Below, one piece after another: positions 3,814-62,942 of a DNA stretch of 64,000 nt (positions within the stretch are counted from its first letter, which is position 1; each line of letters opens with the position of its first letter). Source of the stretch: Selaginella tamariscina (lineage: Eukaryota > Streptophyta > Lycopodiopsida > Selaginellales > Selaginellaceae); NCBI GenBank assembly GCA_003024785.1, contig PUQB01000043.1, positions 682,001 to 746,000 of the forward strand, written 5' to 3'. The notes below the pieces were generated by a model, which ran no database searches, was not told where the DNA came from, and saw nothing but the letters and a program-made list of their open reading frames with translations. The position numbers and the translations under genes are program-made.

Positions 3814-5610
3814 ATGCGTGCACAGAGGCATGTTTTGAGAAGACTCCGTGAGGCCGGATCGAATGCAAGTACAGGTGAAGCTTTATGGGTTAATTCCTGC
3901 CCAATACGGTTGTTTTTGGAGGGTGGAGTTAGAAACAAGGATTTTAATAGCTACACTACAGTACAAGGAATACAAAAGAGTGCTTCCGAGTTTGTTGCTG
4001 CATTAAAGGAATGCGGAAAGACAAGGAGCTTGGAAAACGGGAGAAAACTGCATTCGGATGCTTAAGGCCGGCTTGCACACAGATAAACGTGTAGCTAGCG
4101 CTCTGATTGGCATGTACAGCAAATGCAGGAGCATTTCTCTTGCCAAGGAGGTGTTTCACAGCGCGGTCCATCGGGATGTCGTTATGTGGACTTCTCTTAT
4201 ACTGGGATACGTGGAGAATGGGGAGAGCTTTGTGGCTATGGAGCTGTTCATGAATATGGACTGTGAACCCAACGGCTTTACATTTGCTGCTGCACTCAAG
4301 GCATGTGCAGGTTTGGCTATCACCAAAGGGTCAGATAAGCAGTCTTGTCTGGAGAAGGGGATGGCCATTCATAGAAGTGTCAAGGAGAGCGGGCTCGGTT
4401 TGATGTAGTTATACAAACCGCCTTGGTAGACATGTATAGCAAGTGCGGAAGCATGGAGCGTGCGTACGGTGTTTTCAAGAAGATGACCCGCCGGAATGTT
4501 ATTACATGGACATGTCTCATTCTGGGATACGTGGAACATGGGGATAACGCTAAGGCTCTGGATTTGTTCACAAGAATGGATTGTCCACCGGACAATGTTA
4601 TATATGTTGCTGCACTCAAGGCGTGTTCAGGTTTGGCTACTGACAAGGAGTCGAATAAGCAGTCGTGTCTAGAGAAAGGAATAGGCATCCACGAGCAAGT
4701 CAAAGAGCATCGATTCGAATCAAACATAACCGTGGTAACTGCTTTGGTGGATATGTACAGCAGATGCGGGAGCATGCAACTTGCTAGAGAGATCTTCGAG
4801 AGGATAGTCCAGAAGAACGTTGTCACCTGGAACTGTCTCATTCTGGGATACGTGGAGAATGGGGAAAGCTCAATAGCGCTGGAGTTGTTCCTGAACATGG
4901 ACTGTGAACCGACACATGTCACATATATTGCTGCACTCAAGGCCTGCGGTTGTTTATCTGATCTACCAGTCGGACAGCAGATTCATGCTAGAATCTCTAA
5001 GCTCGGGTTAGAGCATTCTCAAGACCAATCGGTAGCAAGCACCTTGCTGGATTTCTATGGGAAGTGTGGCAGCGTAACTAGAGCTGAAGAGTTCTTTAAC
5101 AGTATGTACGCTCCCAATATAGTTTGCTGGAACGCCTTGTTAGCAGGGTACAGTTCAGTCGGGGACTCACCTCAGGTGTTTCATTGGGCAACGCAGTTAC
5201 AGGAAGCCGGTCTTGGAATGAACGGTGTCACGTTTCTATGTATTCTTACGGCTTGCAGTCACGCGGGGTTGGTGGATAAGGGGAAAATGTACCTCGAATC
5301 GATGCCAGAATATGGTGTATCCTCCACTGTGGAGCACTATAATTGCATGGTTGACATGCTGGGGAGAGCTAACAGACTGGAGGAGGCATTGTCACTTGCT
5401 AATGACATGCCATTTGGTGCTGACATTGTTACATGGAGGACTCTGCTTAGTGCGTGTAGGAAATGGACCAATGTAAGAGTGGGTAAAGCTGCATTTAATA
5501 AGTTAGTTGGTTTCAACCAAGGAGATGCACTTGCTTATGTAATGATGCGTGAGATATACGAGAAGCTTGGTTTGTGGCAAGACTTAGAACAGATCGATGC
5601 TACAAGATAG
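3814..5610 (+). CDS. PPR protein, PLS class with E domain, no DYW
   Basis: A pentatricopeptide-repeat protein expected to bind organellar RNA. It is intronless and about 600 codons long. Repeats follow a fixed style: MYSKCGSM, then LILGYVENGES, then a LFxxMDCEP segment, then AALKAC. Three frames carry it: 3814-4063, 4058-4408, then 4423-5610. The first change falls in LHSDA/LKAG at about 4060. The second is at GGTTTG near 4398, where one T is missing. The C-terminal part has GYSSVGD, HYNCMVDMLGRANRLEEA, MPFGADIVTW and an E motif ending EIYEKLGLWQDLEQ, with no DYW domain. An editing role would therefore need a DYW partner in trans (inference). The second PPR gene at 10,477 is a close paralogue. 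Confidence 0.85.
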
Positions 5611-10476: not shown

Positions 10477-12746
10477 ATGATTCCAGCAGAGGAAACGCTA
10501 CAGGTTAATTCCCGTCCAAGATGGGTGCAAGGAAAGGTAGAGAACAGAGTTAAAGGAAAGAGTGTAATACTGGCTGCATTGAAAGAGTGCAGCAAGAAGC
10601 GCGACTTGGAAGCAGGGAAAGCATTGCATTCGGAAGCAGTCGAGGCTGGCTGTGACGCCCACGTATATGTTGCTACTGCTCTTGTCACCATGTACAGCAA
10701 GTGTGGTAGCATGCAGGACGCAAAGGCTGCATTCGATAAGATACCTCGTAAAGACGCCCCTCTTTGGAACAGTCTGCTTCTGGGATACGTGGAGAATGGG
10801 GAGAGCGTTCTAGCCATGGAGTTATTCACGAGCATGGACTGTGAGCCGAGCTCCGTCACGTTTCTAGCTGCACTCAAGGCGTGTGCGGACTCAGCAAAGC
10901 TGTTAGACACGGAGCTTTGTTTAGAGAACGGGATGGAGTTTCATAGACGAGCCGGAGAGCTTGGATTTGATACAGACCTGTTTGTGGCAAACACCTTGGT
11001 TCATATGTATAGCAACTGCAAGAACATGTTATGTGCACAGGCTGTTTTCGACAAGATGCTCCAGCGTGACTCTGTGTCGTGGAATAATCTCATTTTGGGA
11101 TATGTGGAGAATGGGGAAGGACTTGTCGCTCTGGAGATCTTCACGAGGATGGACCGTGAGCCGGACCGTGTAACTTTATTGCTGTACTGAAGGCATGTGC
11201 GGATTTGGCTAAGCAGTCCGACTGGCAGATTGGTTGGAGAAAGGCATGAGCATTCATAGACAAGCCAGGGAACGCGGACTGGATACGGATTTATTCGTGA
11301 CAAACACCTTGATAGACATGTATATTAAGTGCGGAAGCATGTTGCGTCTCGCGAATGTTTCAGCACAATGACACTCGTGACACTTGTCTCCTGGAACATC
11401 CTCTTCTGGGATACGTGGAGAATGGGGAAAGTGATGCTGCATTAGAGTTATTTAGAAGAATGGATTGTCAAAAAACTGCAATACGTTCGTTACACTACTC
11501 AAGGCATGTATAAACTTGGCTACTCAGAAGCCATCCGATAGAGAGCCTATTCTGAAACTGGGATGGCCATTCATGAACAATGTAAAGAACATGGATTTGA
11601 TACAGAGTTAATCCTGGTAAACACCTTGGTGGACATGTACAGCAGTTGTGGAAGTACAGATCATGCCCGAGCTGTGTTTGAGAATTGGAACAGTTCCATC
11701 ATGGGTTGCAAACGAAACTCTGCTGCAATAGTGTCTGCACTGAAGGCCTGCACAAACTTAGCTACTCAAAAGCAAGCAGAAAAACACATTTACTTGAAGA
11801 CAGGGATGGCTATTCATAGGCAGGCCACTGAGGCGGGCACATTCGTGTTGAACGCGCTGATAGACATGTATAGCAAGTGCGGAAGTATGACCCATGCGCA
11901 GTCCGTCTTCGACAGCATGAGTTACCGAGATGTTTTCTCCTGGACGAGTCTCGTATTAGGATACGTGGAAAATGGAGAAAGCTTTCTGGCTATGGACTTA
12001 TTTGTGAAGATGGACTGTGAGCCCGACTCTATTACATTCGTGGCTGCACTTAAGGCTTGTGGGAGTTCAGGAATAGTATCAGCTGGAAGAAATATACATC
12101 TACAGATATGCAAGCTTGGCATGGAAGGAGACCAAGTTGTAGCAAACAGCTTGGTGGATCTGTATGTCAAGTGTGGTAACATGGCTATGGCTGAGAGGGT
12201 CTTTGATGGGATGACGTTTTGGAATGTAGTGTCTTGGAACACATTACTTACGGGCTACAACTCAGTGGAGACAGTACTCGAGTTCTAAGTATGGTCGAGA
12301 ATATGCAAGAAACAGGTTTACAGATGGATGATGTTACATTTGTATTAGTTCTAACGTCTTGTAGTCAGGCTGGGATGGTGGAGGAAGGCAAACAGTACTT
12401 TAAATGCATCCCAAAGTATGGTATTACTCTGAATGTGGAACACTACCACTGTATGATTGACATGCTGGGGAGAGCGAACAGACTACAGGAAGCACTAGAC
12501 ATGATTGTAAGCATGCCTTTCAAGGACAAGAGTGTTGCGTGGACTACTTTGCTGGGAGCGTGTAGATCCACGAGTAACTTAGAAATTGGCAAGGTTGCGT
12601 TTGATTCATTGGTGGCTTGTAATGTGCATGATGCTGCTCCTGCTTACGTTTTGATGCGAGATATATACACTAAATTGGGTATATTGCAGGAGATTGATGG
12701 TTTAAATGAGTCTCTCAAGTGTGAACTGAACACCGTTCCACACTAA
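10477..12746 (+). CDS. PPR protein, PLS class with E domain (second paralogue), frame-disrupted
   Basis: Close paralogue of the PPR gene at 3814, same strand and same repeat style (LLLGYVENGES, MDCEPSSVTF, AALKACA). It opens with ATG at 10,477 and ILAALKECSKKRDLEAGKAL. Reading runs 10,477-11,190, then a stretch (11,190-11,560) where PPR motifs continue in several frames. Long open parts follow at 11,563-12,288 and 12,219-12,746. Conserved blocks persist throughout, including HYHCMIDMLGRANRLQEA and an E motif RDIYTKLGILQE, then a stop at 12,744. There is no DYW domain. At least four frame changes are needed, densest at 11,190-11,560, so this copy could be a true pseudogene even if the others are error-affected. 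Confidence 0.75.
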
Positions 12747-21268: not shown

Positions 21269-24200
21269 TTAGTGAGTTCCATGAGTGGAAGTACACGCTT
21301 GGAGAAGTCTTGTATGAATCGTCTATAGAAGTTTGCAAAGCCAAGGAAACATTGTATGTCTCAAATAGACTTGGGCCTCTCCCTTTCCACGATAGTCATC
21401 ACCTTGTGCATGTCCATGGAAACGCCAGCAGGAGAGATGATGTAGCCCAAGAACTCCACAATATCCCTGTCAAAAAACACTTCTCCAACTTTGTATACAT
21501 GTCATGCTTGCGAAGCTTCTGTAGAACTAGTCGTACATTCTTGTCATGTGTTGTCTGGTCCTTGGAGAAAATCAAAATGTCATCGAGGTAGATCACCACA
21601 AACTGGTCTAAGATGTCGCGAAAGATGTTTTTCACCATGTGTTGGAACATGGCTGGGGCATTTGTAAGTCTGAAAGGCATCACCGTGTACTCGAAATGTC
21701 CATACCTTGTACGAAAGGCAGTCTCCACTCATTGCCTGGATGAATCCGTACAAGATTATAAGCTTCTCGTAAGTCGATCTTTGTGAACACCTTTACTTCT
21801 CATAGCCGATCGAGAAGTTCCAGGATCAATAACAATGGGTATCGGTTTCGATGGTGACTTGATTCAAACCCCTGTAATCCACAACCAAACCCAAACTCTC
21901 ATCTTTCTTCTTGACAAAGAAGGTAAGTGCTCATGCAGGGATTTTCAGTGACGAATGAAGCCGGATGCCAAGTTGTCCTCAATGTACTGACGAAGAACCT
22001 CCAATTCTGTAGGTGACAGTGCATAAATTGGTCCGAACGGTGGAGTCTTCCCTTCCGCAAGATCGATAGGACAGTCGTAGGATCTGTGAATAGGAAGAAC
22101 TGCAGCCTTGTGCTTATCAAAAATGTCTGAAAGGAGTGATACTTAAATGGCAGGGAAGAAATAGGAGAAGGAGAAGGAGATTAAAAAATAGAAGAGTCAG
22201 ATACAGAAAAGGTAGAAGAGGATGTAGGAGTTACTTGAAAAGCAAAAAGATGAAAAGGAGCAGGATTAGTGGCAAGTTCATGCATAGTAGTGGTAAGAAC
22301 GCAGAGAGGAGAAGGAGGGAGCTATGAATGAAAAAGAGGAAGGATCATGGGAGATGGAACAGAAGCAGAGTAATGAAAAGAGACAGGATTGGAGAAAACT
22401 TGTGCTGATGTTGACGAGTGTACAGAATTGGAAGAGTGAATGCACAGGAATGAGGAGAGCCTGCGAATGTGCTAACAAACTGACAGGAGGTGAATCCTAT
22501 TGAGGAGGAACCTTCGACACTAATACAGGATTGAAGAACCATGTACAGGAATTTGTGAACTTACAGGAGTGGAGAGAGCCTGCGAATGTGTTGATGAATT
22601 GACATGAGGTGAATCCTGTCGAGGAGGAGTCTTCAACACTGATACAGGAATAGGCACGGTCAATCCTGTAGCTTGTACCACCTTAAACACTAAGGTCATA
22701 TCCTGCACACAGGAAGGTACAGGATTAATCCTGGCTGCCGAAGAGGAAAACATAAGTGTCTTAGACCTCCAGTCGATCTGAGGATTTGCAACCACAAACC
22801 ATAGCATGCCCAAAACGATGAGAGTCATCCGAGTCTTGATCAAGTTGAAGGAAATCGAATAGTTAAATGCGCCATGAGTGCAAGAGAAAGGTGTGGTAGC
22901 ATAGGTAACTGCACTAGAAGCAATCAGACGACCATCTGCAACCTTTATAGGAACTGCACGCTTCAACTTCACCACCGGAATGCCATGTTGAGTTGCAAAA
23001 GTGTCATCCATGAAGCATGCATTTGCACCAGTGTCCAACAGGGCAAACTCCTTGAGCTGTCAATTATTGAGGCGAATGTGTACAGAAAACTTGAGTGATG
23101 GAATGGTGTGAACAGCACTAATGGAGCCTGCACCTACGTCCAACTTCGCAACTCCTAGACGAAGTGGACATTCAAGTTTTCTGACTGAACTTCAGCTTTA
23201 ATTTCATGCGTCTTGAACTTCCTGACTTTAATAAGACATTTTGCCCGCCATAGGAACTACTCCAAAAGATGTCGTAGGAATATGTTTGCTACAGCTACAA
23301 GATTGGTTTGCAGGAACTGTTGATGGGATTTTTCCTGACGACGCTCGAACAAACGGTTATCGCAATGAACGGCATGTTGCATGATCTCCGCTAAGGTTTG
23401 GGCATCAGGTAACGTAAGGAGAAGGTCCTTCATGTCATCCCTCAACCCAAAATGGAAGTGTTCAATCAATGCAATCTCATCCCATGGAATGTTCATGCAA
23501 AGTTGCTGAAATTCGGATGCATAAACGGAAGTTAGTCGGAATCTTTGTGTGAGTTTCCTTAACTTCGTGCACGGAACAGTACTTATCAGGATCTCCAAAG
23601 CAGGCTTCAAAGGCAGCCACGAATCCTTCAAAGTCTTCCATCAATGGGTCATCACGCACCAGCAAAGGGGTAACCTAAGCCCGTGGGGATCCAATAGTAA
23701 GGATGTCAAAAGGCCAACCTTTTGTGCATCAGTCGAGTAGCGGCATGGTTACATGCGAATCAAAAGCCTAATATGATTAAGAAAATCTTAGAAATTGGCA
23801 CGATTGCCACTGAACTTCTCTGGCATGCTAATCTTTGGCTGAAGAAGAGTTTGATGAAGAAGAAACACGGATGCTTAAGAGAGAGCTTGCGCAGCAGCCT
23901 TGGAGGATGCATCAGCAGCTACATGCGCTGCGTTAGTGGAAACTTGCAGATTTATGACCACTTGGCGCAAAGTGGCCAGCTCATGAAGCAACATTTGGTG
24001 CTTGCGTTGAAATTGCTCAAAATTTGCCATGATCCATGAAAGAAAGAAGGAAAACAAGGGAGAAAAGTTAAGGAAAAAAAAGTAACTGAAAATCGAGGAG
24101 CTATGAAATCAATTACTATATCAAACTATCAAGCTATGATCCAAGAGTAAGGAGGCTTGACTCAAGAGCAGGATAAGAATTAGGAACAAGACGAGAACAT

Positions 24201-24518
24201 GAGGTAAGAAGCGAGATAAAAACAAGACAAGAATGATTGTAGAATGACTGATGTTGATAATAACTGATTGTACAACAATTAGGTCGGAGCTTTTATGCTC
24301 ACAACTCCAAGAGCTAATCTAAGCATGAGCTAAAAATATACTCCAAGAGCTAATCTAGTTATGAGTTAAAAATAATGTCCCTTATCCTATAGGCATATCC
24401 TGTATCCTGTATTGGGTTGTTGTAGGTATTTCCTGTAGGCATATCCTATATCCCGTATCTGTATCCTGTATCGGGTCGTGATGTATCCTGTATTCTGTAT
24501 CCTGTATTGGTCGTGACA
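21269..24518 (-). mobile_element. Ty3 chromovirus half-element F (5' LTR, gag, PR, RT)
   Basis: The 5' half of a Ty3/gypsy element on the minus strand: LTR 24,127-24,518, gag from about 24,031 to 23,260, protease about 23,050-22,760, proline/serine linker about 22,700-22,500, RT about 22,020-21,285 with [16 protein letters not shown]. The coding parts are interrupted by frameshifts and stops. It stops abruptly at about 21,270, at the RT/RNase H boundary. The missing 3' half matches element A at 43,929-46,406 (see findings). Confidence 0.85.
24127..24518 (-). repeat. LTR of element F
   Basis: About 392 bp, bounded by TATCAAGC (degenerate TGTCAAGC) and GGTCGTGACA in plus orientation. It shares the GAGCATAAAAGCTCC promoter-like block and GGATAT-type short repeats with the LTRs at 46, 49, 53, 56 and 62 kb. 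Its flank CCAACTTAGTGG belongs to the 73-bp array. Confidence 0.8.
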
Positions 24519-25320
24519 CCAACTTAGTGGCCTGTCGTGATGTATCCCATATCCTGTATCTTATATCGGGTCATGACACCAACCTTAGTGGCCTGAGTTT
24601 CATGTGTACAAGGTCTATTTAGGGTCTATTTAGGTAAAGACAAGTGCGCCAACCTTAGTGGCCTGAGCTTCATGGTTGTACACATGTGATCTGAACTTCA
24701 TGGTTGTACACATGTGATCAAGGGGTCTATTTAGGTAAAGACAAGTGCGCCAACCTTAGTAAACTGAGCTTCATGGTTGTACACATGTGATCGAGGGGTT
24801 TATTTAGGTAAAGACAAGTGCGCCAACCTTAGTAAATTGAGCTTCATGGTTGTACACATGTGATCGAGGGGTCTATTTAAGTAAAGACAAGATCGAGGGG
24901 TCTATTTAGGTAAAGACAAGTGCGCCAACCTTAGTAAACTGAGCTTCATGGTTGTACACATGTGATCGAGGGGTCTATTTAGGTAAAGACAAGTGCGCCA
25001 ACCTTAGTAAACTGAGCTTCATGGTTGTACACATGTGATCGAGGGGTCTATTTAGGTAAAGACAAGTGCGCCAACCTTAGTAAACTAAGCTTCATGGTTG
25101 TACACATGTGATCGAGGGGTCTATTTAGGTAAAGACAAGTGCGTCAACCTTAGTAAACTAAGCTTCATGGTTGTACACATGTGATCGAGGGTCTATTTAA
25201 GTAAAGACAAGATCGAGGGGTCTATTTAGGTAAAGACAAGTGCGCCAACCTTAGTAAACTGAGCTTCATGGTTGTACATAAGTGATCGAGGGGTTTATTT
25301 AGGTAAAGACAAGTTTGCTA
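24519..25320. repeat. 73-bp tandem array (about 10 units)
   Basis: The unit contains GGGGTCTATTTAGGTAAAGA, then CAAGTGCGCCAACCTTAGTA, then CATGGTTGTACACATGTGAT. Starts at 24,723 and 24,796 are exactly 73 bp apart. Some units carry an extra 28-bp sub-duplication (near 24,869-24,897 and 25,185-25,215). The array lies directly downstream (minus orientation) of a tRNA-Met-like primer-binding site and a 161-bp LTR. Related units occur at 42,650-42,780, 46,407-46,811 and 56,530-56,680. Confidence 0.9.
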
Positions 25321-25394
25321 ACCTTAATGGCTTGAGCTTAACTCACAAGTTCACCCTTGATGGAAATTGAACTTGAGACCACTCTAATATCAAA

Positions 25395-43928: not shown

Positions 43929-46406
43929 TAAGCGCACATGGGATTTCTCTTGGTCCAATAAGGCGGAACGTGCATTCACAACACTTAAGAACGCCATCAC
44001 GACAGCTCCAATTTTAGCACATCTTGATCTTTTTGTCCATTCTTCGTTGAAGCATATGCTTTGGACTTTGTAGTAAGTTTTATTCTATTACAAGTTGAAG
44101 AAAACAAGTTACTCCATCATATAGCCTTTCACTCTCATAAGTTCCTTTCGGCAAAGATTAATTACAAGATTCATGATAAGGAACTCAAGGCCATTATGGA
44201 TTGAGTGGCGGCACTTCCTGGAAGGTGCTATACATCCTGTACAAGTTTTTACGGATCACAAGAACCTGGAGTTTTTTCAAACGGCTCGAGTTCTCAATCG
44301 GCGACAGACTAGGTGGGCAGAATTCCTATCACGTTTTGATTTTCATTATCTACAGGCCTAGTTTTCGGAATGGCAAAGCGGATGTATTATCTAGGCACTT
44401 TTACCTTGCATCGACCTCGGGCGATTCTGCATATGACTATCAAAAGCAAGTGTTGTTGGGTCCTGATCGATTTCGGCTTGCGGCACTACAGGTTCATCAG
44501 GCTCCAGCAAATTCAACACTTTTACAGGACATCTATTTGCAATTGGCTACAGACGACTTGGCAAAGAATGTGTTCTCACACATTAATCCTGACATCGCAA
44601 GCTCCTCTTCCTCCAGTTCCCATACAGATTACAAGTTGTTTGCCATATAGGACGGACTTCTGTACCGGGAAGGTCTCCTGTACATTCTTCTTGGTGTTAT
44701 AGGACTCGTGTGGTACAGGATTGTTATGATACCCCAGCTACAACATTTGGTGCGGCCAAGACAGTTGATTTGGTGACTCACAACTATTGGTGGCTGGGTT
44801 GCGAGGTTTTGTAGAAAAGTTTATACAGATTTGTGACACCTAACAGGTTGAAGATGCCTCGTCACGCACCCTCTAGTCTTCTTCGCCCTCTTCCTGTTCC
44901 CTCTGCTCTTTGGAAATTTATTTCTATGGATTTCCTCACAGATCTTCCTCCTTCTCGTGGATTTGATGTAATTTTTGTGATGGTTGACCATTTCACCAAA
45001 CATGCTCATTTCCTACCATGTAACAAGACGGCTACATGCCATATAACTATTGAGTTGGTGATCTGCGAAGTGTTCCAACATCATGGTCTTCCTGAGAACA
45101 TTGTTTCTGATCGAGGCCCATAATTCATGTCTAGATTTTGGCGAGAGCTTCTCCGGAGTTTACAAGTTAAAGTGAATCTTTCTTTAGGATATCATCCGCA
45201 AACTGATGGGCAGTCAAAATGCACCATTCAGACCTTGGAGTAGTATCTTTGCTACTTCATCAGTTACTAATAGGACAATTGGTTGGACCTTCTTCCTATG
45301 GCGGAGTTTGCTTACAACAACTCCGTTCACGCATTTACAGGCCAGACACCTTTCTTCGCTCTTACAGGCTACCATCCACATTTTGACTTTGCTCCTCATG
45401 CTTCTCCTTCTTCCCCTCCTACAGTACAGATCGTCTCCAACATCTTCGTTAGGTACAGGATGATCTCCGAGTTCATCTTCAGCAAGCACAGGAATGGTAC
45501 AAACGTTATGATGATGCTCATTGTCAGCCGGCACCTATATACAAGATTGGTGATCTCGTGTGGCTTCTTCGTCGACATATTTACACCAACAGGCCTTCTT
45601 TTAAGTTGGATTTTCAACGATTGGGCCCTTACAGGATTGCGACTGAGGTCAATCCTATAGTTTTTTGACTAAAGCTACCATCTACTATGAAACTTCATCC
45701 TATATTTTACACCTCTTTGTTGGAACCGTATCATCCTTCTTCTCTTCCTGGTCGTGCTTCTTCTTCCTCCCCTTCATGTGGTCATTGACAATGAACCTAA
45801 ATACAAAGTTGCAGCCATCTTGATTCTCGTCTTCATCGCGACCAACTTTAATACTTGGTGGATTGGAAAGGTTATTTGCCTACCAATCGCACTTGGGAAC
45901 CTGCATTAATTTACTCCATGCTTCTTCTAAGGTTGCTGCCTTTCATCGATGTTATCCACTAAACCAGGTCTTAGGACTCGTGGAACTCATCCTTAGGGAG
46001 GAGGTGCTGTCATGACCCAATACAAGATACATGATACGGGATACATGATATGCCTACAGGATATACCTACAATGACTTAATACAGGATACAAGATACGAA
46101 GATACAGGATATGCTTAAAATATACTTACAGGATATGCTTACAGGATATAAGGGACATTATTTTTAGCTCATGACTAAATTAGCTCTTGGAGTATATTTT
46201 TAGCTCATGCCTAGATTAGCTCTTGGTGTTGTGAGCATAAAAGCTCCGACCTAATTATTGTACAATTAGTTACTATCAACACTAGTCATTCTATAATCAT
46301 TCTTGTTTTGTTCTTGTTTCGCTCCTTGCCTCCTATTCTTATCTTGTTCCTAGTTTTTATATTGCTCTTGAGTCAAGCCTCCTTGCTCTTGGATTATGGC
46401 TTGACA
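43929..46406 (+). mobile_element. Ty3 chromovirus half-element A (RNase H, integrase, chromodomain, 3' LTR)
   Basis: The 3' half of the chromovirus family: RNase H about 43,950-44,400 ([32 protein letters not shown]), integrase about 44,600-45,600 (SMDFLTDLPPSRGFD), then a GPY-type module and chromodomain remnants about 45,610-45,960, polypurine AGGGAGGAGG, LTR 46,008-46,406. Stops and frameshifts are present. The 5' part is missing; element F is its match. Confidence 0.85.
46008..46406 (+). repeat. LTR of element A
   Basis: 399 bp, TGTCATGACC...GGCTTGACA. Followed by ATTGGCGCACTTG, a 73-bp-array flank that continues the GTTGG flank of element F. Confidence 0.85.
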
Positions 46407-46811
46407 ATTGGCGCACTTGTCTTTACCTAAATAGACCCCTCAATCATATGTGTACAACCATGCGTCTCTAAGATCGCTTTTGGCCTAACCATGGTGCACT
46501 TGTCTTTACCTAAATAGACCCCTCAATCACATGTGTACAACCATGCGTCTGTAAGATCACTTCTGGCCTAACCATGGCGCACTTGTCTTTACCTAAATAA
46601 ACCTCGATCACATGTGTACAATCATGCGTCTCTGAGATCGTCTTTGGCCCAATGGTAAGGATTAAGAGTTTGATATGTTTGTATTTACGTAAACGGCCGC
46701 ATTATGTGCATTACATACTTGTATGTGTGCTTGTTTATATATTTGTGCTCGATGCTCAATCACATGTGTACAACCATGTGTCTTTGAAATTGCCTTTGGC
46801 CCAATGGTAAG
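46407..46811 (+). repeat. TRIM-like internal repeats (73-bp and about 151-bp units)
   Basis: Three 73-bp-type units in reverse orientation to 24.6 kb (GCGCACTTGTCTTTACCTAA and CACATGTGTACAACCATGCG), then a longer unit of about 151 bp from AAGGATTAAGAGTTTGATATG to GGCCCAATGGT. The outer element splits the next longer unit, which resumes at 56,530. Confidence 0.8.
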
Positions 46812-47685
46812 TGTCACGACCCGATACATGATACAAAATTCCGGATACAAGATACATGATACATGATACAGGATATGCCTTCAGGATATTCCTATAGGAT
46901 ATACCTACAGAGTATTCTTAAAGATATGCCTACAAGATATTCCTACAGGATATACTACAGGATATGCCTAGAGGATAAAGGACATGTAGATTCGTTTTAG
47001 CCTCTACATGCATATAGCCACTTTTAGATGCATGCAACCACTTTTAGCACTCATGCCTAGATTAGTTCTTGGAGTTGTGAGCATAAAAGCTCCAACCTAA
47101 TTGTTGTACAATTAGTTACTATCAACACTAGTCATTCTACGATTATTCTTATTCTTTGTTCTTATCTTGTTCTTGTCTTGCTCTTGTCTTATTCCTGGTT
47201 CCCATCCTACTCCTAGTTCCTGTTCCAGTTCCTATCCTGCTCCTTGTCCTGCTATCCTGCTCCAGTTCCTATCATGCTCCTTGTTTTGCTATCCTGCTCC
47301 AGTTCCTATCCTGCTCCTTGTCCTGTTATCATGCTCCAGTTCCTATCCTGCTCCTTGTTTTTACTATCCTGTTCCAGTTCCTATCCTGCTCCTTGTTCTA
47401 CTATCCTGTTCCAGTTCTTATCTTGTTCCAGTTCCTATCCATGCTCCTTGTCCTGCTCCTAAGTTCTTAGTTCCTGTCCTGTTCCTTGTCCTGCTCCTGA
47501 GTCAAGTTCTCTTGTCCTACTTCTGATTCCTGAGTTCCTAGTTCCTGTCATGCTCCTAAGTTCCTAGTTCCTTGTCCTCCTCCTGAGTTCTTAGTTCCTG
47601 TCTTGCTCCTTGTCTTGCTCCTGAGTCAAGCTCCCTTGTCCTCAAAATCCTGCTCACTTCCTTGTTCCTGGATCATGGCTTGACA
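46812..47685 (+). repeat. 5' LTR of outer element (874 bp)
   Basis: TGTCACGACCCGATAC...GGCTTGACA. It has a GGATAT-type short-repeat zone, the block GAGCATAAAAGCTCC, AGTTACTATCAA at 47,114-47,125, and an expanded C/T minisatellite at 47,200-47,480. Confidence 0.92.
47200..47480. repeat. C/T minisatellite in LTR (unit about 37 bp)
   Basis: Repeats of TCCTGCTCCTTGT(C/T)(C/T)TGCTATCATGCTCCAGTTCCTA-like units. The partner LTR has the same zone at about 56,080-56,300. It is stop-free in all three frames, which yields spurious Leu/Pro/Ser-rich ORFs. Confidence 0.85.
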
Positions 47686-49339
47686 GTTTGATAGTAATTG
47701 CTTTCATAGCTCTCTGATTCCCAGTTATTTTTTTTCCCTTCTTTTTCCTTTCATAGATCATGACCAATTTTGAGCACTTTCAATGCGAGCACCAAATGTT
47801 GCTTCATGAGCTGGCCACTTTGCGCCAAGTGGTCACAGATCTGCAAGGTTTCACTAACGCAGCGCATGCAATTACTAATGCATCCTCCAAGGCTGTTGCG
47901 CAAGCTCTCTCTCAAGCATCCGTGGTTTCTTCTCCATCGAACTCTTCTTCAGAGCCAAAGATCAGCATGCCAGAGAAGTTCAATGGCAATCATGCCATTT
48001 TCCAAGGTTTCCTAAATTTGATCAGGCTTTTGATCCGCATGCAACCATGCCACTACTCAATTGATGCACAAAAGGTTGGCCTTTTGGCATCCCTACTAGT
48101 TGGATCTCCATGGACTTGGGTTGCCCCTTTGCTGGAGCATGACGACCCTTTGATGGAAGACTTTGAAGGATTCGTGACTGTCTTTGAAGCCTGCTTTGGA
48201 GATCCTGATAAGTACCATTCCGCATGCACGAAGTTACGCAAGCTTACACAAGAATCCAGACTAGTTTCTGTCTATGCATCTGAATTTCAGCAACTTTGCA
48301 CGAACGTTCTATGGGACGAGACTGCATTGATCGAACATTTCCATTTTGGGTTGAGGGATGACGTGAAGGACCTTCTCCTTACGTTACCGGATGCCCAAAC
48401 CTTAGCGGAGATCATGCAACAGGCCGTTCGCTATGACAACCGTTTGTTCGAGTGTCGTTAAAAAAAAATCCCGTCAGCAATTCCTGCAAGTCAATCTTGT
48501 AGCTGTAGCACATGTTCCTGGACACCTTCTGGAGTAGTCCCTATGGAGGTTGAGAAATACAAGCATGGACCACTTTCAGATGCGGAAAAGCAACGCCGTC
48601 GCAGTGAGAACTTATGCTTGTATTGTGGTGAAGTAGGACACAAGGTGGCGGAATGTCCTGCTAAAGCCAGGAAGTTCAAGATGTGCGAAGTTGAAGCCGA
48701 AGTTCAATGTCCACTCCATCTAGGAGCTGCGAAGTTGGACGTAGGTGCAGGCTCCATTGGTGTTGCTCATACCATTTCATCACTCAAGTTTCCTATACAC
48801 ATTCGCCTCAACAATCGAGAGCTCAAGGAGTTTGCCCTATTAGACACTGGTGCAAATGCATGGTTCATGGATGACACTTGTGCAACTCAACATGGCATTC
48901 GGTGGTGAAGTTGAAGTGTGCAGTTCCTATAGAGGTGGCCGATGGTCGTCTAATTGCTTCAGGCGTAGTTACTCATGCTACCACACCTCTCTCTTGCAGT
49001 CATGGCGCATTTAACTATTCGATTTCCTTTAACTTGATCAAGACTCAGTCGACTCCCATCATTTTGGGCATGCCATGGTTCGTGGTTGCAAATCCTCAAA
49101 TTGACTGGAGGTCTAGGACGTTCATGTTTTCCTCTCCAGTAGCCAGGATCAATCTTGTACCTTCCTACATCCTTAGTGTCCGAGGCAGTACAAGCTACAG
49201 GATTGATCGTGCCTGTTCCTATATCAGTGTTGAAGACTCCTCCTCAACAGGATTCACCTCATGTCAATTCCTTAGCACATCCACAGGCTTTCTCCACTCC
49301 TGTTTCACCTCATGTCAGTTCCTCAGTACATCCACAGGC

Positions 49340-49886
49340 TGTCAAGCCACGATCCAGGAAACAGGAAGTGAGCAGGATTCCAAGAGTAGGAAGGCTTGAC
49401 TCAGGAGCAGGATAGGAAACAAGACAGGAACTAGGAACTCAGGAATAAGACAAGACGCAGGACAGGATCCAGGAGTAGGACAGGAACAGGAGGATCTAGG
49501 AGCAGATAGGAACAGAAGGATCCAGGAGCGAGACAAGAGAGGAGGCAAGGAGCAAGACAAGACAAGAACAAGACAAGAACAAGAATGATCGTAGAAAGAC
49601 TGGTGTTGATAGTAACTGATTGTACAACAATTAGGTCGGAGCTTTTATGCTCACAACTCCAAGCTAATCTAGTCATGAGTCTAATCTAGTCATGAGCTAA
49701 GAATAGTGTCCCTTATCCTCTAGGCATATCCTGTAGCATATCCTATAGGCATATCCTATAGGAATATCCTATAGGATATCCTGCAGGCATATCCTGTAAC
49801 CCGTATCCTGTATCCGATCCTGCATCCTGTATCCTGTATCCGGAAACCTGTATCCTGCATCCTGTATCCTGTATCGGGTTGTGACA
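49340..49886 (-). repeat. 3' LTR of element C
   Basis: 547 bp; plus-strand ends TGTCAAGCCACG and GGGTTGTGACA. It contains TTGATAGTAACT (49,606-49,617), complementary to the family's priming site. Confidence 0.92.
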
Positions 49887-51424
49887 GCACCTCCTCCCTA
49901 AGGACGAGTTCCACGAGTCTTAGGCCTGGTTTAGCAGGATAATGCCGATGGAAGGCAGCAACTTTGGAAGAAGCATGGAGTAAGTTGGATGCAGGTTCCC
50001 AAGTGCGATCGGTAGGCAAATAACCTTTCCAATCCACCAAGTATTGAAGTTGGCGGCGATGAAGACGAGAATCAAGGATGGCTGCAACTTCGTACTCAGG
50101 TTCACCAGCAATGACCACAGGAGGGGGAGGAGAAGAAGCACGACCAGGAAGAGAAGAAGATATACGGCTCCAACAAGGAGGTGTGAAACACAGGATGAAG
50201 TTTCACCGTGGATGGTAACTCGAGTCGGAAAGCTACAGGATTTACCTCCGCCACGATCCTGTAAGGGCCCAATCGTTGAAAATCCAACTTAGAAGAAGGC
50301 CTGTTGGTGCGAATGTGTCGACGAAGAAGCCACACGAGATCACCAATCTTGTATGCAGGTGCCGGCTGACGGTGAGCATCAGCATGATGCTTGTACCGTT
50401 CCTGTGCCTGCTGAAGGTGAACCTGGAGATCATCCTGTACCTGCCGAAGATGCTGGAGACGATCCTGTACTGCAGGAGCGGAAGAAGGAGAAGCGGAGGA
50501 GCAAAGTCAAAACGTGGATGGTGGCCTGAAGAGCAAAGAAAGGTGTCTGGCCTGTAGATGCGTGAACGGAGTTGTTAGGCAAACTCCGCCATAGGAAGAA
50601 GGTCCAACCAATTATCCTGTTGGTAACTGATGAAGCAGCGAAGATATTGCTCCAAGGTCTGAATTGTGCGTTCTGACTGCCCATCGTTTGCGGGTGATAT
50701 CCTGAAGAAAGATCCGCTTTAACCTGTAGACTCCGAAGAAGCTCTCGCCAAAACTTGGACATGAATTGTGGACCTCGATCGGAAACAATGCTCTCAGGAA
50801 GACCATGATGTCGGAACACCTCGCGGATCACCAACTCGCAGTTGTCTGACCTGTAGCTGTCTTGTTGCAGGGTAGGAAATGAGCCTGCTTGGTGAAACGG
50901 TCAACCACCACAAGAACTGCATCAATCCACGAGAAGGAGGAAGATCTGTGAGGAAATCCATAGAAATGGATCTCCAAGGAGCAGAAGGAACAGGAAGAGG
51001 ACGAAGAAGACCAGAGGGTGCATGATGAGGCATCTTCGACCTGTTGCAGGTGTCACAACTCCGTACAAACCTTTCCACAAAACCTCGCAACCCAGGCCAC
51101 CAATAGTTGCGAGTCACCAACTCAACTGTCTTGGCCACACCAAAATGTCCTGTAGCCGGGGTATCATGACAATCCTGTACCACACGAGTCCTGCAAACAC
51201 CAACAGGAACGTACAGGAGACCTTCCCGGTACAGGAGTCCGTCCTGTATGGCAAACAGCGTGTAGTCTGAACGGGAACTGGAGGAAGAGGAGCTTGCAAT
51301 GTCAGGACTAATGTGTGAGAACACATTCCTTGCCAAATCGTCTGTAGCCAACTGCGAACGGATGTCCTGTAGAAGTGTTGAATCTGCTGGAGCCTGATGA
51401 ACCTGTAGTGCTGATGAACGGAAA

Positions 51425-51830
51425 GAGGTGAATCCTGTCGAGGAGGAACCTTCGACACTAATACAGGATTGGAAGAACCCTGTACAGGAATCCGCGACCT
51501 TACAGGAATGGAGAAAGCCTGCGGATGTGCTGAGGAACTGACATGAGGTGAATCTTGCCGAGGAAGAGTCTTCAACACTGATACAGGATTGGAAGAACCC
51601 TGTACAGGAATCGCGAACTTACAGGAGTGGAGAAAGCCTGCGGATGTGCTGAGGAACCAACAGGAGGTGGATCCTGTTGAGGAGGAACTTTCGACACTGA
51701 TACAGGATTGGAAGAACCCTGTACAGGAATCCGCAAACTTACAGGAGTGGAGAGAGCCTGCGGATGTGCTGAGGAGCTGACATGAGGTGAATCCTGTCGA
51801 GGAGGAGTCTTCAACACTGATACAGGAACA
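51425..51830 (-). repeat. Linker tandem repeat (about 120 bp, about 3.5 units)
   Basis: Units start with GAATCCTGTCGAGGAGGA-type sequence near 51,430, 51,553, 51,672 and 51,791. They encode repeats of DSPHVSSSAHPQA followed by PVQGSSNPVSVSKVPP between protease and the deleted RT. Confidence 0.88.
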
Positions 51831-53387
51831 GGCACAGTCAATCCTGTAGCTTGTACTGCCTCAGACACCAAGGATGTATCCTGCACGCAGGAAGGTACAG
51901 GATTGATCTTGGCTGCTGGAGAGGAAAACGTGAGCGTCCTAGACCTCCAGTCGATCTGCGGATTTGCAACAACGAACCATGGCATGCCAAAAATGATGGG
52001 AGTCGACCGAGTCTTGATCAAGTTGAAGGAAATCGAACAGTTGAATGCGCCATGACTGCAAGAAGAGGTGTGGTAGCGTGGGTAACTGCGCCAGAAGCAA
52101 TCAAACGACCATCGGCCACCTCTACAGGAACTGCACGCTTCAACTTCACCACCGGAATGCCATGCTGAGCTGCAAAAGTGTCATCCATGAAACATGCATT
52201 TGCACCAGTGTCTAACAGGGCAAACTCCTTGAGCTCTCGGTTATTGAGGCGAATGTGTACAGGAAACTTGAGTGATGAAATGGTATGAGCAACACCAATG
52301 GAGCCTGCACTTACGTCCAACTTCGCGGCTCCTAGACGGAGTGGACATTGAACTTCGGCTTCAACTTCGCACGTCTTGAACTTCTTGGCTTTAGCAGGAC
52401 ATTCCGCCACCTTGTGTCCTACTTCACCACAATACAAGCATAAGTTCTCACTACGACGGCGTTGCTTTTCCGCAGCTGAAAGTGGACCACGCTTGTATTT
52501 CTCAACCTCCATAGGGACTACTCCAGAAGGTGTCACAGGAACATGTGCTACAGCTGCAGGATTGACTTGCAGGAACTGCTGACGAGATTTTTCCTGACGA
52601 CGTTTGAACAAACGGTTGTCACAGCGAACGGCCTGTTGGATGATCTCTGCTAAGGTTTGGGCATCCGGTAACGTAAGGAGAAGGTCCTTCACGTCATCCC
52701 TCAACCCAAAACGGAAATGTTCATCAATGCAGTCTCATCCCATGGAACGTTCGTGCAAAGTTGTTGAAATTCGGATGCATAAACAGAAACTGGTCGGGAT
52801 CCTTGTGTGAGCTTGCGTAACTTCTGCATGCGAATGGTACTTATCAGGATCTCCAAAGCAGGCTTCAAAGGCAGCCACGAATCCTTCAAAATCTTCCATC
52901 AATGGATCGTCACGTTCCAGCAAAGGGGCAACCCAAGCCCGGGAGATCCACTTAGTAAGGATGCCAAAAGGCCAACCTTTTGTGCATCAGTCGAGTAGCG
53001 GCGTGGTTGCATGCGGATCAAGAGCCGGATCTGATTCAGGAAACCTTGGAAATCGGCACGGTTGCCACTGAACTTTTCTGGCATGCTGATCTTTGGCTCG
53101 AAGAAAAGTTCGATGAAGAAGGAACCACTGATGCTTGAGAGAGAGCCTGCGCAGCAGCCTTGGAGGATGCATCAGCAGCTGCATGTGCCGCATGGGTGGA
53201 GCCTTGCAGATCGGTGACCACTTGGCGCAAAGTGGCCAGCTCATGAAGCAACATTTGGTGCTCGCGTTGAATTGCTCAAAAACGGCCATGATCTATGAAA
53301 GAAAGAAGGAAGGAAACAAAGGAGAAGAACCAAGGGGAAAAAAAAATAATCGAAAATCGGGAGCTATGAAAGCAGTTACTATCAAAC

Positions 53388-53908
53388 TATCAAGCCACGA
53401 TCCAGAAACAGGAAGTGAGCAGGATTCCAAGAGTAGGAAGGCTTGACTCAGGAGCAGGATAGGAAACAAGACAGGAACTAGGAACTCAGGAACAAGACAA
53501 GACGCAGGACAGGATCCAGGAGTAGGACTGGATCTAGGAGCGAGATATGAATAGGACAGGATCCATGAGCGAGACAAGAGCACGAGGCAAAGGAGCAACA
53601 CAAGACAAGAACAAGAATGATAGTAGAAAGACTGGTGTTGATAATAACTGATTGTACAACAATTAGGTCGGAGCTTTTATGCTCACAACTCCAAGCTAAT
53701 CTAGTCATGAGTCTAATCTAGTCATGAGCTAAGAATAGTGGCCCTTATCCTCTAGGCATATCCTATAGCATATCCTATAGGCATATCCTGTAGGAATATC
53801 CTGCAAGCATATCCTGTAACCCGTATCCTGTATCCTGCATCCTGCATCCTGTATCCTGTATCCGGAAACCTGTATCCTGCATCCTGTATCCTGTATCGGG
53901 TTGTGACA
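53388..53908 (-). repeat. 5' LTR of element C
   Basis: 521 bp; plus-strand ends TATCAAGCCACG (one change from TGTCAAG) and GGGTTGTGACA. The priming site lies just outside at 53,374-53,385. Confidence 0.92.
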
Positions 53909-55660
53909 CAGGCTTTCTCCACTCTTGTGAATTTGCGGATTCCTGTACAGGGTTCTTCCAATCCTGTATCAGTGTTAAAGACTCCTCCTCAACAGGATTC
54001 ACCTCATGTCAGTTCCTCAGCACATTCATAGGCTTTCTCCACTCCTGTAAGTTTGCGGATTCCTGTACAGGGTTCTTCCAATCCTGTATTAGTGTCGAAG
54101 GTTCCTCCTCGACAGGATTCACCTCTTGTCAATTCATCAGCACTACAGGTTCATCAGCTCCAGCATATTCAACACTTCTACAGGACATTCATTTGCAGTT
54201 GGCTACAGACGACTTGGCAAAGAATGTGTTTTAACATATTAGTCCTGACATCGCAAGTTCCTCTTCCTCCAGTTCCCGTACAAACTACAAGTTGTTTGCC
54301 ATACAGGACGGACTCCTGTACCGGGAAGGTCTCCTGTACGTTCCTGTTGGTGTTTGCAGGACTCGTGTGGTACAGGATTGTCATGATACCCCGGCTACAG
54401 GACATTTTGGTGTGGCCAAAACAGTGAAGTTGATGACTCGCAACTATTGGTGGCCTGGGTTGCAAAGTTTTGTGGAAAGGTTTGTACGGAGCTGTGACAC
54501 CTGTAACAGGTCGAAGATGCCTCGTCATGCACCCTCTGGTCTTCTTTGTCCTCTTCCTGTTCCTTCTGCTCCTTGGAGATTCATTTCTATGGATTTCCTC
54601 ATAGATCTTCCTCCTTCTCGTGGATTTGATGCATTTTTTATGGTGATTGACCGTTTCACCAAACAGGCTCATTTCCTACCTTGCAATAAGACAGCTACAG
54701 GCCAACAATGGCGAAGTTAGTGATCCGTGAAGTGTTCCAATCATGGTCTTCCTAAGAATATTGTTTCTGATCGAGGCCCATAATTCATGTTCAAGTTTTG
54801 GCGAGAGCTTCTCCGAAGTCTACAAGTGAAAGCGGATCTTTCTTCAGGATATCATTCACAAACTGATGGGCAGTCAAAATGCACCATTCAGACCTTGGAG
54901 CAATATCTTTGCTGCTTCATCAACAGGACAACTAGTTGGACCTTCTTCCGATGGCGGAGTTTGCCTACAACAACTCCGTTCATGCATCTACAGGCCAGAC
55001 ACCTTTCTTCGCTCTTACAGGCTACCATCCACATTTTGACTTTGCTCCTCCTGCTTCTCCTCTTCCGCTCCTGCAGTACAGATCGTCTCCAGCATCTTCG
55101 TCAGGTACAAGATGATCTCCGGGTCCATCTTTAACAGGCACAGGAATGGTACAAGCATCATGCTAATGCTCATCGTCAGCTGGCACCTGCATACAAGATT
55201 GGTGATCTCGTGTGGCTTCTTTGTCGACATATTTGCACCAACAAGCCTTCTTCTAAGTTGGATTTTCAGCGATTGGACCCTTACAAGATTGCGGTGAGGT
55301 CAACTCTGTAGCTTTCTGACTCGAGTTACCATCCACGGTGAAACTTCATCTTGTGTTTCACACCTCTTTATTGGAGCCATATCATCCTTGTTCTCTTCCT
55401 GGTCGTGCTTCTTCTCCTCCCCCTTCTGTGGTCATTGACGATGAACTTGAGTACGAAGTTGCAACCATTCTTGATTCTCGTCTTCATCGCTGCCAACTTC
55501 AATACTTAGTGGATTGGAAAGGTTATTTGCCTACCGATCGCACTTGGGAACTTGCATCCAGCTTACTTCATGCTTCTTTCAAAGTTGCTGCCTTCCATCG
55601 ACATTATCCTGCTAAACTAGGTCTTAAGACTTGTGGAACTCGTCCTTAAGGAGGAGGTGT

Positions 55661-56529
55661 TGTTATGACCCGATACAGGATACAAAATTCCGGATACAAG
55701 ATACAGGATACGGATACAGGATATGCCTGCAGGATATTCCTATAGGATATACCTACAGAATATTCCTAAAGGATATGCCTACAGGATATTCCTACAGGAT
55801 ATACTATAGGATATGCCTAGAGGATAAGGGACATGTGGATTCGTTTTAGCCTCTGCATGCATATAGCCACTTTTAGATGCATTCAACCACTTTTAGCACT
55901 CATGCCTAGATTAGCTCTTGGAGTTGTGAGCATAAAAGCTCCAACCTAATTGTTATACAATCAGTTACTATCAACACTAGTTATTCTACGATTATTCTTA
56001 TTCCTTGTTCTTATCTTATTCTTGTTTTGCTCCTTGCCTCCTGCTCTTGTCTTATTCTTGGTTCCCATCTTGCTCCTGGTTCCTAGCTCCTGTCCTGCTC
56101 CAGTTTCTATCCTGCTCCTTGTCATGCTATCTTGCTCCAGTTCCTATCCTACTCCTTGTTCTGCTATCCTGCTCCAGTTCCTATTCTGCTCCTTGTCCTG
56201 CTATCATGCTCCAGTTCCTATCCTACTCCTTGTTTTGCTATCATGCTCCAGTTCCTATCCTGCTCCTTGTTTTACTATCATGTTCCAGTTCCTATCCTGC
56301 TCCTAAGTTCTTAGTTCCTGTCTTGTTTCTTGTCCTGCTCTTGAGTCAAGCTCCCTTGTCCTACTTCTGATTCCTGAGTTCCTAGTTCCTGTCATGCTCC
56401 TGAAGTCCTAGTTCCTTATCCTCCTCATGAGTTCCTAGTTCCTGTCTTGCTCCTTGTCTTGCTCCTGAGTCAAGCTCCCTTGTCTTCAAAATCCTGCTCA
56501 CTTCCTTGTTCCTGGATCGTGGCTTGACA
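55661..56529 (+). repeat. 3' LTR of outer element (869 bp)
   Basis: TGTTATGACCCGATAC...GGCTTGACA, preceded by the polypurine run AAGGAGGAGG. It has the same minisatellite expansion as its partner, supporting the pairing. Confidence 0.92.
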
Positions 56530-56814
56530 GTAAGGATTAAGAGTTTGATATGTTTGTATTTACGTAAACGGCCGCATTATGTGCATTACATACTTGTATG
56601 TGTGCTTGTTTATATATTTGTGCTCGATGCTCGATCACATGTGTACAACCATGCGTCTCTGAGATCGCCTCTTGCCCAATTGACATTTGATGTGAGTACA
56701 GACATGCAGTCACACAATGTGTGGACACCTCTAAGCTGCACCTTGTGGAGGAAAGCATAGTAGCAACCCTTTGTCTATACTCACACAATGTGTGGACACC
56801 TCTAAGCTGGGTGC
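56530..56814 (+). repeat. TRIM-like internal sequence between two insertions
   Basis: Resumes the about 151-bp unit cut at 46,811 (AAGGATTAAGAGTTTGATATG), then two copies of CACACAATGTGTGGACACCT with CTCTAAGCTG. It continues after element E at 62,943. Confidence 0.8.
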
Positions 56815-57351
56815 TGTCACAACCCGATACAGGATTCTGGATTCCGGATACAGGATACATACAGGATACGGGTTACAGGATATACCTACAGAATATGCAT
56901 GTAGGATATTCCTACAGGATATACCTACAGGATATTCCTACAGGATATGCCACAGGATATGCTTAGAGGATAAGGGACATGTGGACTCATCTTAGCCTCT
57001 GCATGCATGTAACCACTTTTAGCACTCATGCCTAGATTAGCTCTTGGAGTTGTGAGCATAAAAGCTCCGACCTAATTGTTGTACAATTAGTTACTATCAA
57101 CACCAATCTTACTACGATCATTCTTGTTTTGTCTTGTTCTTGTCTTGCTCCTTGTTTCTTGTTTCACTCTTGGATCCTGTCCTGCTCCTGTCTTGCTCCC
57201 GGATCCTATCCTGATCCTGTCTTGCTCCTGGATCCCGTCATGTTCCTGTCTTATTCCTAGTTCCTGTCCTGCTCTCGGTCCTGCTCCTGAGTCAAGCCTT
57301 CATGTTCTTGGAATCTTACTCTCTTCCTGGTTCCTAGATCGTGGCTTGACA
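56815..57351 (+). repeat. 5' LTR of element E
   Basis: 537 bp, TGTCACAACCCGATAC...GTGGCTTGACA. TATA-like CATAAAAG at about 57,056-57,063 and AGTTACTATCAA at 57,089-57,100. Confidence 0.93.
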
Positions 57352-57353
57352 GT

Positions 57354-57365
57354 TTGATAGTAACT
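57354..57365 (+). promoter_or_regulatory. Putative self-priming site of element E
   Basis: TTGATAGTAACT lies 2 nt after the LTR end, where a tRNA primer-binding site would normally be. It is complementary over all 12 bases to AGTTACTATCAA at 57,089-57,100 in the LTR. Confidence 0.7.
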
Positions 57366-57447
57366 GCCTTCATAGCTCTCCGTTTCCAGCTAATTTTTTT
57401 TTCCTTGATTCTTTTCCTTCATTTTCCTCCTTTCTCTTTCATAGATC

Positions 57448-58410
57448 ATGGCTGATTTTGAGCACTTTCAACGCGAGCACCAAATGTTGCTTCATGAGCT
57501 GGCCACTTTGCGCCAAGTGGTCACCGATCTGCAAGGTTCCACCAATGCGGCACATGCAACTGCTGATGCATCCTCCAAGGTTGCTGCGCAGGCTCTCTCT
57601 CAGGCATCGGTGGTTCCCTCTTCATCGAACTTTTCTTCGGAGCTGAAGGTTAGCATGCCAAAAAAGTTTAGTGGCAATCGTGCCGATTTCCAAGGTTTCC
57701 TGAATCAGATCCGGCTCTTGATCCGCATGCAACCACGCCGCTACTCGACTGATGCACAAAAGGTTGGCCTTTTGGCATCCTTACTAAGTGGATCTCCACG
57801 GGCTTGGGTTGCCCCCTTGCTGGAACGTGACGACCCATTGATGGAAGACTTTGAAGGTTTCGTGGCTGCCTTTGAAGCTCTTTGGAGATCCTGATAAGTA
57901 CCGTTCTGCATGCACGAAGTTACGAAGCTCATCAAGGATCCCGACCAGCTTCTCTATGCATCCGAATTTCAGCAACTTTGCACGAACATTCCATGGGACG
58001 AGACTGCATTGATCAACACTTCCGTTTTGGGTTGAGGGATGACGTGAAGGACCTTCTCTTACGTTACCGGATGCCCAAACATTAGCAGATCATGCAACAA
58101 GATGTTCGTTGCGATAACCGTTTGTTTGAGCGTTGTCAGGAAAGATCCCGTCAGCAGTTCTGCAAATCCACAGCTGTGGTACATGTTCCTGCACCACCTT
58201 CTGGAGTAGTTCCTATGGAGGTTGAGAAATCCAAACGTGGCTCTCTTTCCGCTGCTGAGAAGCAACATCGCCACAGTGAGAACCTATGCTTGTATTGTGG
58301 TGAAGCAGGACACAAGGTGGCAGAATGTCCTATCAAAGCCAGGAAGTTCAAGACACGTGAAGTTGAAGCTGAAGTTCAGTCGAAAAACTTCAATGTCCAC
58401 TTCGTCTAGG
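57448..58410 (+). pseudogene. Gag of element E
   Basis: Opens ATG then ADFEHF and LLHELATLRQVVTDLQ (helical, possibly coiled coil), an Ala/Ser-rich hinge, capsid-like PKKFSGNRADFQGFLNQIRL and VGLLASLLSGSPRAWVAPLL, then a zinc knuckle. Frame changes near 57,884, 57,940, 58,015 and 58,165 relative to the nested copies. Confidence 0.85.
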
Positions 58411-62331: not shown

Positions 62332-62937
62332 TGTCACAACCCGATACAGGATGCAGGATTTTAGATACAGGATACAGGTTACAAGATATACCTATAGGAT
62401 ATGCCTGCAGGATATTCCTACAGGATATACCTACAGGATATTCCTACAGGATATGCCACAGGATATGCCTAGAGGATAAGGGACATGTGGACTCATCTTA
62501 GCCTTTGCATGTATGCAGCCACTTTTACATGCATGCAACCACTTTTAGCACTCATGCCTAGATTAGCTCTTGGAATTGTGAGCATAAAAGCTCTGACCTA
62601 ATTATTGTACAATCAATTACTATCAACACCAGTCTTACTACGATCATTTTGTTTTGTCTTGTTCTTGTATTGCTCCTTGTTTCTTGTCTCACTCTTGGAT
62701 CCTGTCCTGCTCCTGTCTTGCTCCCGGATCCCGTCCTGTTCCTGTCTTGTTCCTGGATCTTGTCCTGCGCCTTCCTGTCTTGCTCCCGGATTTTATCCTA
62801 ATCCTGTCTTGCTCCTGGATCTCGTCCTGTTCTGTCTTATTCCTAGTTCATGTCCTGCTCTCGGTCCTGCTCCTGAGTCAAGCCTTCTTGTTCTTGGAAT
62901 CCTACTCTCTTCTTGGTTCCTGAATCGTGGCTTGACA
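62332..62937 (+). repeat. 3' LTR of element E
   Basis: 606 bp, preceded by polypurine AGGGAGGAGG. It has AATTACTATCAA at about 62,616-62,627, one change from the 5' LTR copy. Confidence 0.92.
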
Positions 62938-62942
62938 GGTGC

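Follow-up and report, generated by a model that had tools for sequence, protein, structure and literature searches.

A chromovirus family in the window

The window (the whole 64-kb stretch of Selaginella tamariscina DNA analysed here) appears to hold one family of Ty3/gypsy chromoviruses, present in several decayed copies. Self-comparison assigned to this single family copies A (a 3' part), B, C (nested in reversed orientation inside B), D and F (on the minus strand). Their features are as follows.

56815..57351, + strand: 5' LTR of D (TGTCA...TGACA), of an LTR pair with the 5-bp TSD GGTGC at 56810-56814 and 62938-62942
57057..57064, + strand: TATA-like box of D, CATAAAAG, with the primer word 32 nt downstream
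57089..57100, + strand: putative self-primer word of D, AGTTACTATCAA, the predicted RNA 5' end
57291..57298, + strand: U5 inverted repeat of D, 5' arm GTCAAGCC
57343..57350, + strand: U5 inverted repeat of D, 3' arm GGCTTGAC, at the LTR end
57352..57353, + strand: 2-nt spacer GT of D, from LTR end to PBS
57354..57365, + strand: putative primer binding site (PBS) of D, TTGATAGTAACT, the complement of 57089-57100
57445..57894, + strand: piece of the D gag reading frame, first ATG at 57448
62332..62937, + strand: 3' LTR of D, where the word is AATTACTATCAA (62615-62626)
46812..47685, + strand: 5' LTR of B, TSD GTAAG, with U5 enlarged by 37-nt tandem repeats
47114..47125, + strand: putative self-primer word of B
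47688..47699, + strand: putative PBS of B, TTGATAGTAATT, with one G-U against the B LTR word
55661..56529, + strand: 3' LTR of B
53388..53908, - strand: 5' LTR of C, nested in B, TSD GCCTG (from the flanks)
53638..53649, - strand: putative self-primer word in the 5' LTR of C, AGTTATTATCAA, with one U-G against the C PBS
53374..53385, - strand: putative PBS of C, TTGATAGTAACT
49340..49886, - strand: 3' LTR of C, with the word AGTTACTATCAA at 49606-49617, 12/12 against the C PBS
49759..50202, - strand: open frame of C that encodes a chromodomain of group I, with cage residues Y, W and Y kept
46268..46279, + strand: LTR word of A, in its remaining LTR
24254..24265, - strand: LTR word of F, AGTTATTATCAA, with a PBS remnant at about 24111-24124 that carries a 2-nt insertion

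The LTR ends are fixed by the TSDs (GTAAG in B, GGTGC in D and GCCTG in C), and the PBS therefore starts 2 nt past the LTR end. The LTRs end in ...TGACA in B and D and in ...TGATA in the 5' LTR of C, and the TATA-like box is identical across eight aligned window LTRs. The distance from the word to the PBS start is 574 nt in B versus 265 nt in D, because the 37-nt repeat, present in five to six copies (47218-47429 and 56096-56304), enlarges the U5 of B.

Open-frame pieces of the copies match models for gag, protease, reverse transcriptase, RNase H, integrase and chromodomain. The piece of B that is homologous to the gag frame of D matches Retrotrans_gag, Ty3_capsid and DUF4939. The chromodomain aligns with HP1-type domains and, judged by eye, keeps the cage aromatics Y24, W45 and Y48; three such aromatics define group I chromodomains in the available text of PMC3350952. 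A search with RNase H retrieved 175 proteins, and among the matches listed (120) too few are named for a clade assignment.

Other repeats accompany the copies. A 120-nt tandem repeat (51408-51827 and 53910-54143) is found on the downstream side of the protease region of C and next to the site at which C is inserted in B; related tandem repeats with units of 73-83 nt adjoin F (24622-25326) and A (46409-46649). An inverted repeat, CTAATTGT..ACAATTAG, lies at the predicted transcript start of D (57072-57090), and several other copies carry ACAATCAG in its place.

An LTR word complementary to the site past the LTR

The original prediction held that a 12-nt word inside the LTR pairs with the sequence just past it, and this was confirmed copy by copy. 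In D the two words are complementary over all 12 bases. For B, 11 of 12 had been claimed, and the exception is a G-U pair; in C the PBS matches the word of its own 5' LTR at 11 of 12 positions and that of its 3' LTR at 12 of 12. The motif is also present in A, and F is eroded as described. The TATA-like sequence, said to lie about 33 nt before the word, is found 32 nt upstream of it. The longest complement to the D LTR within the first 17 nt past that LTR is this 12-nt stretch; the maximum was 11 both among 1000 dinucleotide-shuffled LTRs and among 700 other 17-mers from the internal region.

A tRNA-type site had been predicted to be absent, and indeed no TGG occurs in the first 12 nt past the LTR in B, C or D, nor in the seven relatives described below. 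According to the available part of a 2019 survey, self-priming is called where at least 10 nt complementary to the element's own LTR start 0-5 nt past the 5' LTR (PMC6317226); here 12 nt start 2 nt past it. A tRNA-Met PBS, used here as a mark of the Galadriel clade (Galahad of Selaginella), is not seen in the window family. The contrast originally drawn with a neighbouring TRIM-like element bearing a tRNA-Met-like PBS was not reproduced in the window: no such element was found there, and a window search for TGGTATCAGAGC gave only two matches, each with 2 mismatches, where 5.3 were expected by chance. A different Ty3/gypsy element of the genome (G000:C1281:715870-723203, spanning L040-L041), with LTRs of about 980 nt that are 99% identical, does carry a tRNA-Met-type PBS, TGGTATCGGAGC, and thus at least one other element of this genome looks tRNA-primed.

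Copies across the genome

The genome searched comprises 300,702,823 bases in 1391 contigs. A DNA search with the R-U5-PBS of D gave 40 scored matches among 4998 candidates, of which 28 were taken (8 as loci and 20 by place); a further match lies inside L004, and L001 is D itself. The genome and window copies together supplied 36 LTR ends, 27 of them (D counted twice) with the 12-nt word on both sides. Among these 27, 21 pair at 12/12, four have one G-U and two have one mismatch; TATA and word are 32 nt apart in 25 of them and 30 nt apart in the other two. The remaining nine LTR ends are five without a PBS, the 3' LTR of C, for which the match is false, and three with indels (L019, L022 and F). 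L013 and L018, which were missed by the word pattern, show an indel and a mismatch. The inner arm GTCAAGCC is present in all 31 rows (D again counted twice), and 29 of these have GGCTTGAC at the LTR end; the U5 around these conserved arms varies greatly in length. Since these copies were the best matches to D, their likeness alone is little proof. The exact word formed by LTR end and PBS occurs at 1500 places in the genome, and its reversed control at none.

A scan of 264 kb (200 kb of genome plus the window) for complementary pairs of 11 nt accompanied by a TATA box was set aside; it returned 14 matches versus 8 for the decoy. Three of the 14 came from this family (D twice, and L045); those inspected from outside the family were a local inverted repeat (L046), a duplicated stretch (L031) and a simple repeat (L042). 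In a genome search with gag (140 scored among 6978 candidates), many matches had identical scores and 326-aa open frames, a pattern suggesting that one subfamily underwent a recent burst. A single gag match sits in an open frame of 1966 aa.

Compensatory change inside the family

The original prediction had proposed looking for compensatory changes between the two 12-mers, and such changes were found both within the family and between families. Inside the family, a linked change was first hinted at by L022. The variant PBS TTGATTGTAACT, searched together with the LTR end, occurs at 62 exact places in the genome, and the variant LTR word AGTTACAATCAA, in its context, at 191; the reversed control of each gave 0. 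The variant PBS could be checked at 37 of its 62 places (LTR words among the matches listed, on contigs up to C694). At 30 of these 37, AGTTACAATCAA precedes the PBS on its strand by 200-512 nt (0.009 expected by chance). By comparison, among 100 listed places of the 1500 with the common PBS, AGTTACAATCAA lies upstream at 1, and at the distance of the 3' LTR at 2 more. The variant word is thus found in cis at 30/37 variant versus 1/100 common sites (Fisher P=1.9e-22). Seven of the 37 places are without the exact variant word, and L022, in which the word has an extra base, is one of them.

The change that defines this subfamily turns a T:A pair into A:T, and the compensation within this genome may be a single event inherited by a spreading subfamily. 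The insertion in L022, AGTTACTAATCAA, was dropped as a separate variant: it occurs at only 2 places in the genome and is therefore read as the AGTTACAATCAA word plus one base. No compensation was credited to the wobble changes of the window copies, because C-to-T keeps the pairing through G-U.

Co-variation between families

Searches of viral contigs for relatives, with an integrase piece and with the gag alignment, found none. The gag alignment did find five contaminant contigs in prokaryote assemblies, and a second search of the two assemblies that contain such contigs yielded ten distinct gag-bearing contigs among the loci taken. Seven of the ten show the layout of LTR word and PBS, with a TATA box at -31 to -33. 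The other three are L062, in which only about 71 nt precede gag by the contig end, L063, which is decayed, and L057, a weak match. The words of the relatives are as follows.

L049: AAGGTGAACAA
L051, L052, L053 and L055: AAGGCGAACAA
L061: ACTCTTGATCAA
L050: CAGTCTCGACAA

All four words differ from that of the window family, and each matches its own PBS. When the seven relatives and D were aligned, all 91 cells paired and 9 of 12 pairs were doubly changed, a 100% pairing that, like the 2-nt spacing, is partly built in because the words were located by complementarity (in some scans also by TATA and CA). None of 500 shuffles reached the observed value, and slid versions were paired at 30-46%. Throughout this alignment the word ends in an invariant CAA. 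The layout scans required a TATA box as well as a CA placed 2 nt ahead of the PBS; a search of five contigs that required neither TATA nor LTR end recovered the same pair as the longest in each. Decoy searches with TATA on the relatives' contigs gave 0.

Six of the seven relatives (L049, L051-L053, L055 and L061) come from the Trichormus bin ERR2144891. This bin has 16 PPR matches, against 0 in the other cyanobacterial bin and 14 control genomes, and so contains land-plant DNA. Trichormus is a cyanobacterium known from Azolla ferns; the land-plant DNA is probably that of the fern host, and the relatives are probable fern elements. In L049 and L053 the order is chromodomain, LTR, PBS, gag, as in a collapsed assembly or a one-LTR circle.

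Folding of the leader and a second helix

Folding of the leader was also proposed originally. When longer leaders were folded, the 12-mer:PBS helix reached a probability of up to 0.85 in D, of about 0.24 in B and of 0 in C. Mean predicted pairing probability was 0.92-0.96 in the seven relatives and 0.94 in D. The 8-bp inverted repeat at the LTR end reached significance in D alone (P=0.01); on the same test the relatives ranged from 0.06 to 0.93.

In the folded leaders of the relatives, the LTR end is paired with a stretch of R that lies a few bases past the primer; in L049, for instance, GTTACGGAG faces CTCCGTGAC. In the window family, by contrast, the partner of the LTR end is a copy that lies within U5. 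In either case a stem may sit beside the PBS. The helix between R and LTR end in the relatives has 89.7% of cells paired and 4 of 9 pairs doubly changed, which is weaker evidence than the first helix offers because the structure was taken from the fold of L049.

A predicted self-priming mechanism

The co-variation of both words is strong evidence that their pairing matters. With compensatory changes inside the family and between families, the reading originally proposed gains support, and we predict with high confidence that the family primes its own reverse transcription, as Tf1 does. The elements are very probably Tf1/Sushi-type self-primed chromoviruses with a group I chromodomain, and the clade is most likely Tcn1.

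In Tf1, the 11 nt at the start of the RNA anneal to the PBS, and RNase H releases them to serve as the primer, as described in the available text of PMC7175516, and the part of PMC4600332 at hand reports for Tj1 of Schizosaccharomyces japonicus a PBS complementary to the mRNA 5' end. For the window family, sequence evidence supports the scheme as far as the pairing; the transcription start, RNase H cleavage and priming proposed here are modelled on Tf1 as those texts present it. Transcription would start at the first A of the word, and the leading 12 nt of the transcript would loop back to anneal with the PBS. After cleavage behind ...CAA by the RNase H of the element, minus-strand DNA would be primed from the released 3' end, through the 2-nt spacer and on into U5. 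Such minus-strand cDNA is then expected to have its 5' end joined to AGUUACUAUCAA and not to a tRNA. The stem at the LTR end, formed with GTCAAGCC in U5 here and with R past the primer in the relatives, may hold the structure, like the U5-IR of Tf1 and of retroviruses; a U5-IR-like stem is reportedly required by Tf1.

Should the primer, still attached, be copied during plus-strand synthesis, a mutation of the LTR word would be written into the PBS in one cycle, and the two words could therefore change and yet stay complementary. In this way word and PBS could evolve as one unit, with lycophyte and fern families having swapped the word, except CAA, several times while complementarity was kept; self-priming would then be an old and stable trait of non-seed-plant chromoviruses and not an oddity of mosses and club mosses. 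We hold this wider proposal to be about evenly poised between right and wrong.

Alternative readings

The complementarity might serve another RNA job, such as circularising, dimerising, packaging or translational control, with the minus strand primed otherwise. Long-range 5' pairings with such roles are known from retroviruses, and co-variation shows that a pairing matters, not what it is for. However, the downstream word stands in B, C and D at the very position that a minus-strand primer requires, the TGG of a tRNA-type site is missing there and in the relatives, and the 3' end of the primer side, CAA, does not vary; we therefore consider this reading improbable.

Still less likely is priming at the site by a tRNA fragment or half-tRNA, with the LTR match secondary. 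The site is where a PBS belongs, and such PBSs exist in some plant Ty1/copia lineages, as far as the available text of PMC6317226 describes them. Yet there are five PBS words among the families, in addition to the variant within this genome, each matching its own LTR, which argues against a tRNA primer, since a tRNA would keep the word constant. Chance or an assembly artefact can practically be dismissed, given 0 of 1000 shuffles, the 1500 genome places and seven contigs from two other assemblies.

Relation to known elements

The self-priming predicted for the window family follows the scheme of Tf1 and Tf2 (Schizosaccharomyces pombe) and Tj1, in which the PBS pairs with the RNA 5' end; it is predicted here from sequence, and differs in its 12-nt word and plant host. 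The 2019 survey that predicted self-priming of plant Tcn1 elements is reportedly the work of Neumann and others. In its available text (PMC6317226), most Tcn1 elements of mosses and club mosses are predicted to be self-primed, while no other group of plant chromoviruses is; this kind of element was thus already known. Self-priming has also been proposed for the fungal Tcn1 of Cryptococcus (PMC7175516, in the part available). Predicted self-priming is shared with the Tcn1 clade, and so is the group I chromodomain, which the accessible text of PMC3350952 describes. The LTR is separated from gag by a T-rich leader, a feature also known from SM-Tcn1 of Selaginella moellendorffii; the available part of the 2010 paper (PMC2864245), however, detected neither tRNA priming nor self-priming for SM-Tcn1. 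The Galadriel-type SM-Galahad of Selaginella resembles the window family in its lycophyte host, group I chromodomain and Ty3/gypsy membership, but SM2-Galahad has a tRNA-Met PBS (both from the accessible text of PMC3350952), which the window family lacks. The TAR lineage of plant Ty1/copia (Houba, Osr-1) is likewise predicted to be self-primed in the available text of PMC6317226, but belongs to a different superfamily.

What is new here is probably the co-variation evidence, together with the probable fern relatives. The word 'fern' is absent from the available text of the 2019 survey (PMC6317226), and a literature search by listings found no further paper on fern self-priming or on compensatory change. 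That survey, in the text available, called self-priming from an LTR complement of at least 10 nt (PMC6317226); here co-variation was tested at two depths and is present at both, which makes a strong sequence-based case for self-priming outside fungi. The analysis also points to relatives in DNA that is probably from a fern, and the 1500 exact PBS places offer ample material for mapping RNA and cDNA ends.

Other sequences in the window

The window also contains pieces of PPR proteins, thaumatin and HSP70, with weaker matches, below Pfam cut-offs, to an E motif and a ubiquitin-conjugating enzyme. The PPR open frames at 4375-5607 and 10477-12743 are similar to each other and lie near the thaumatin piece at 2985-3377.
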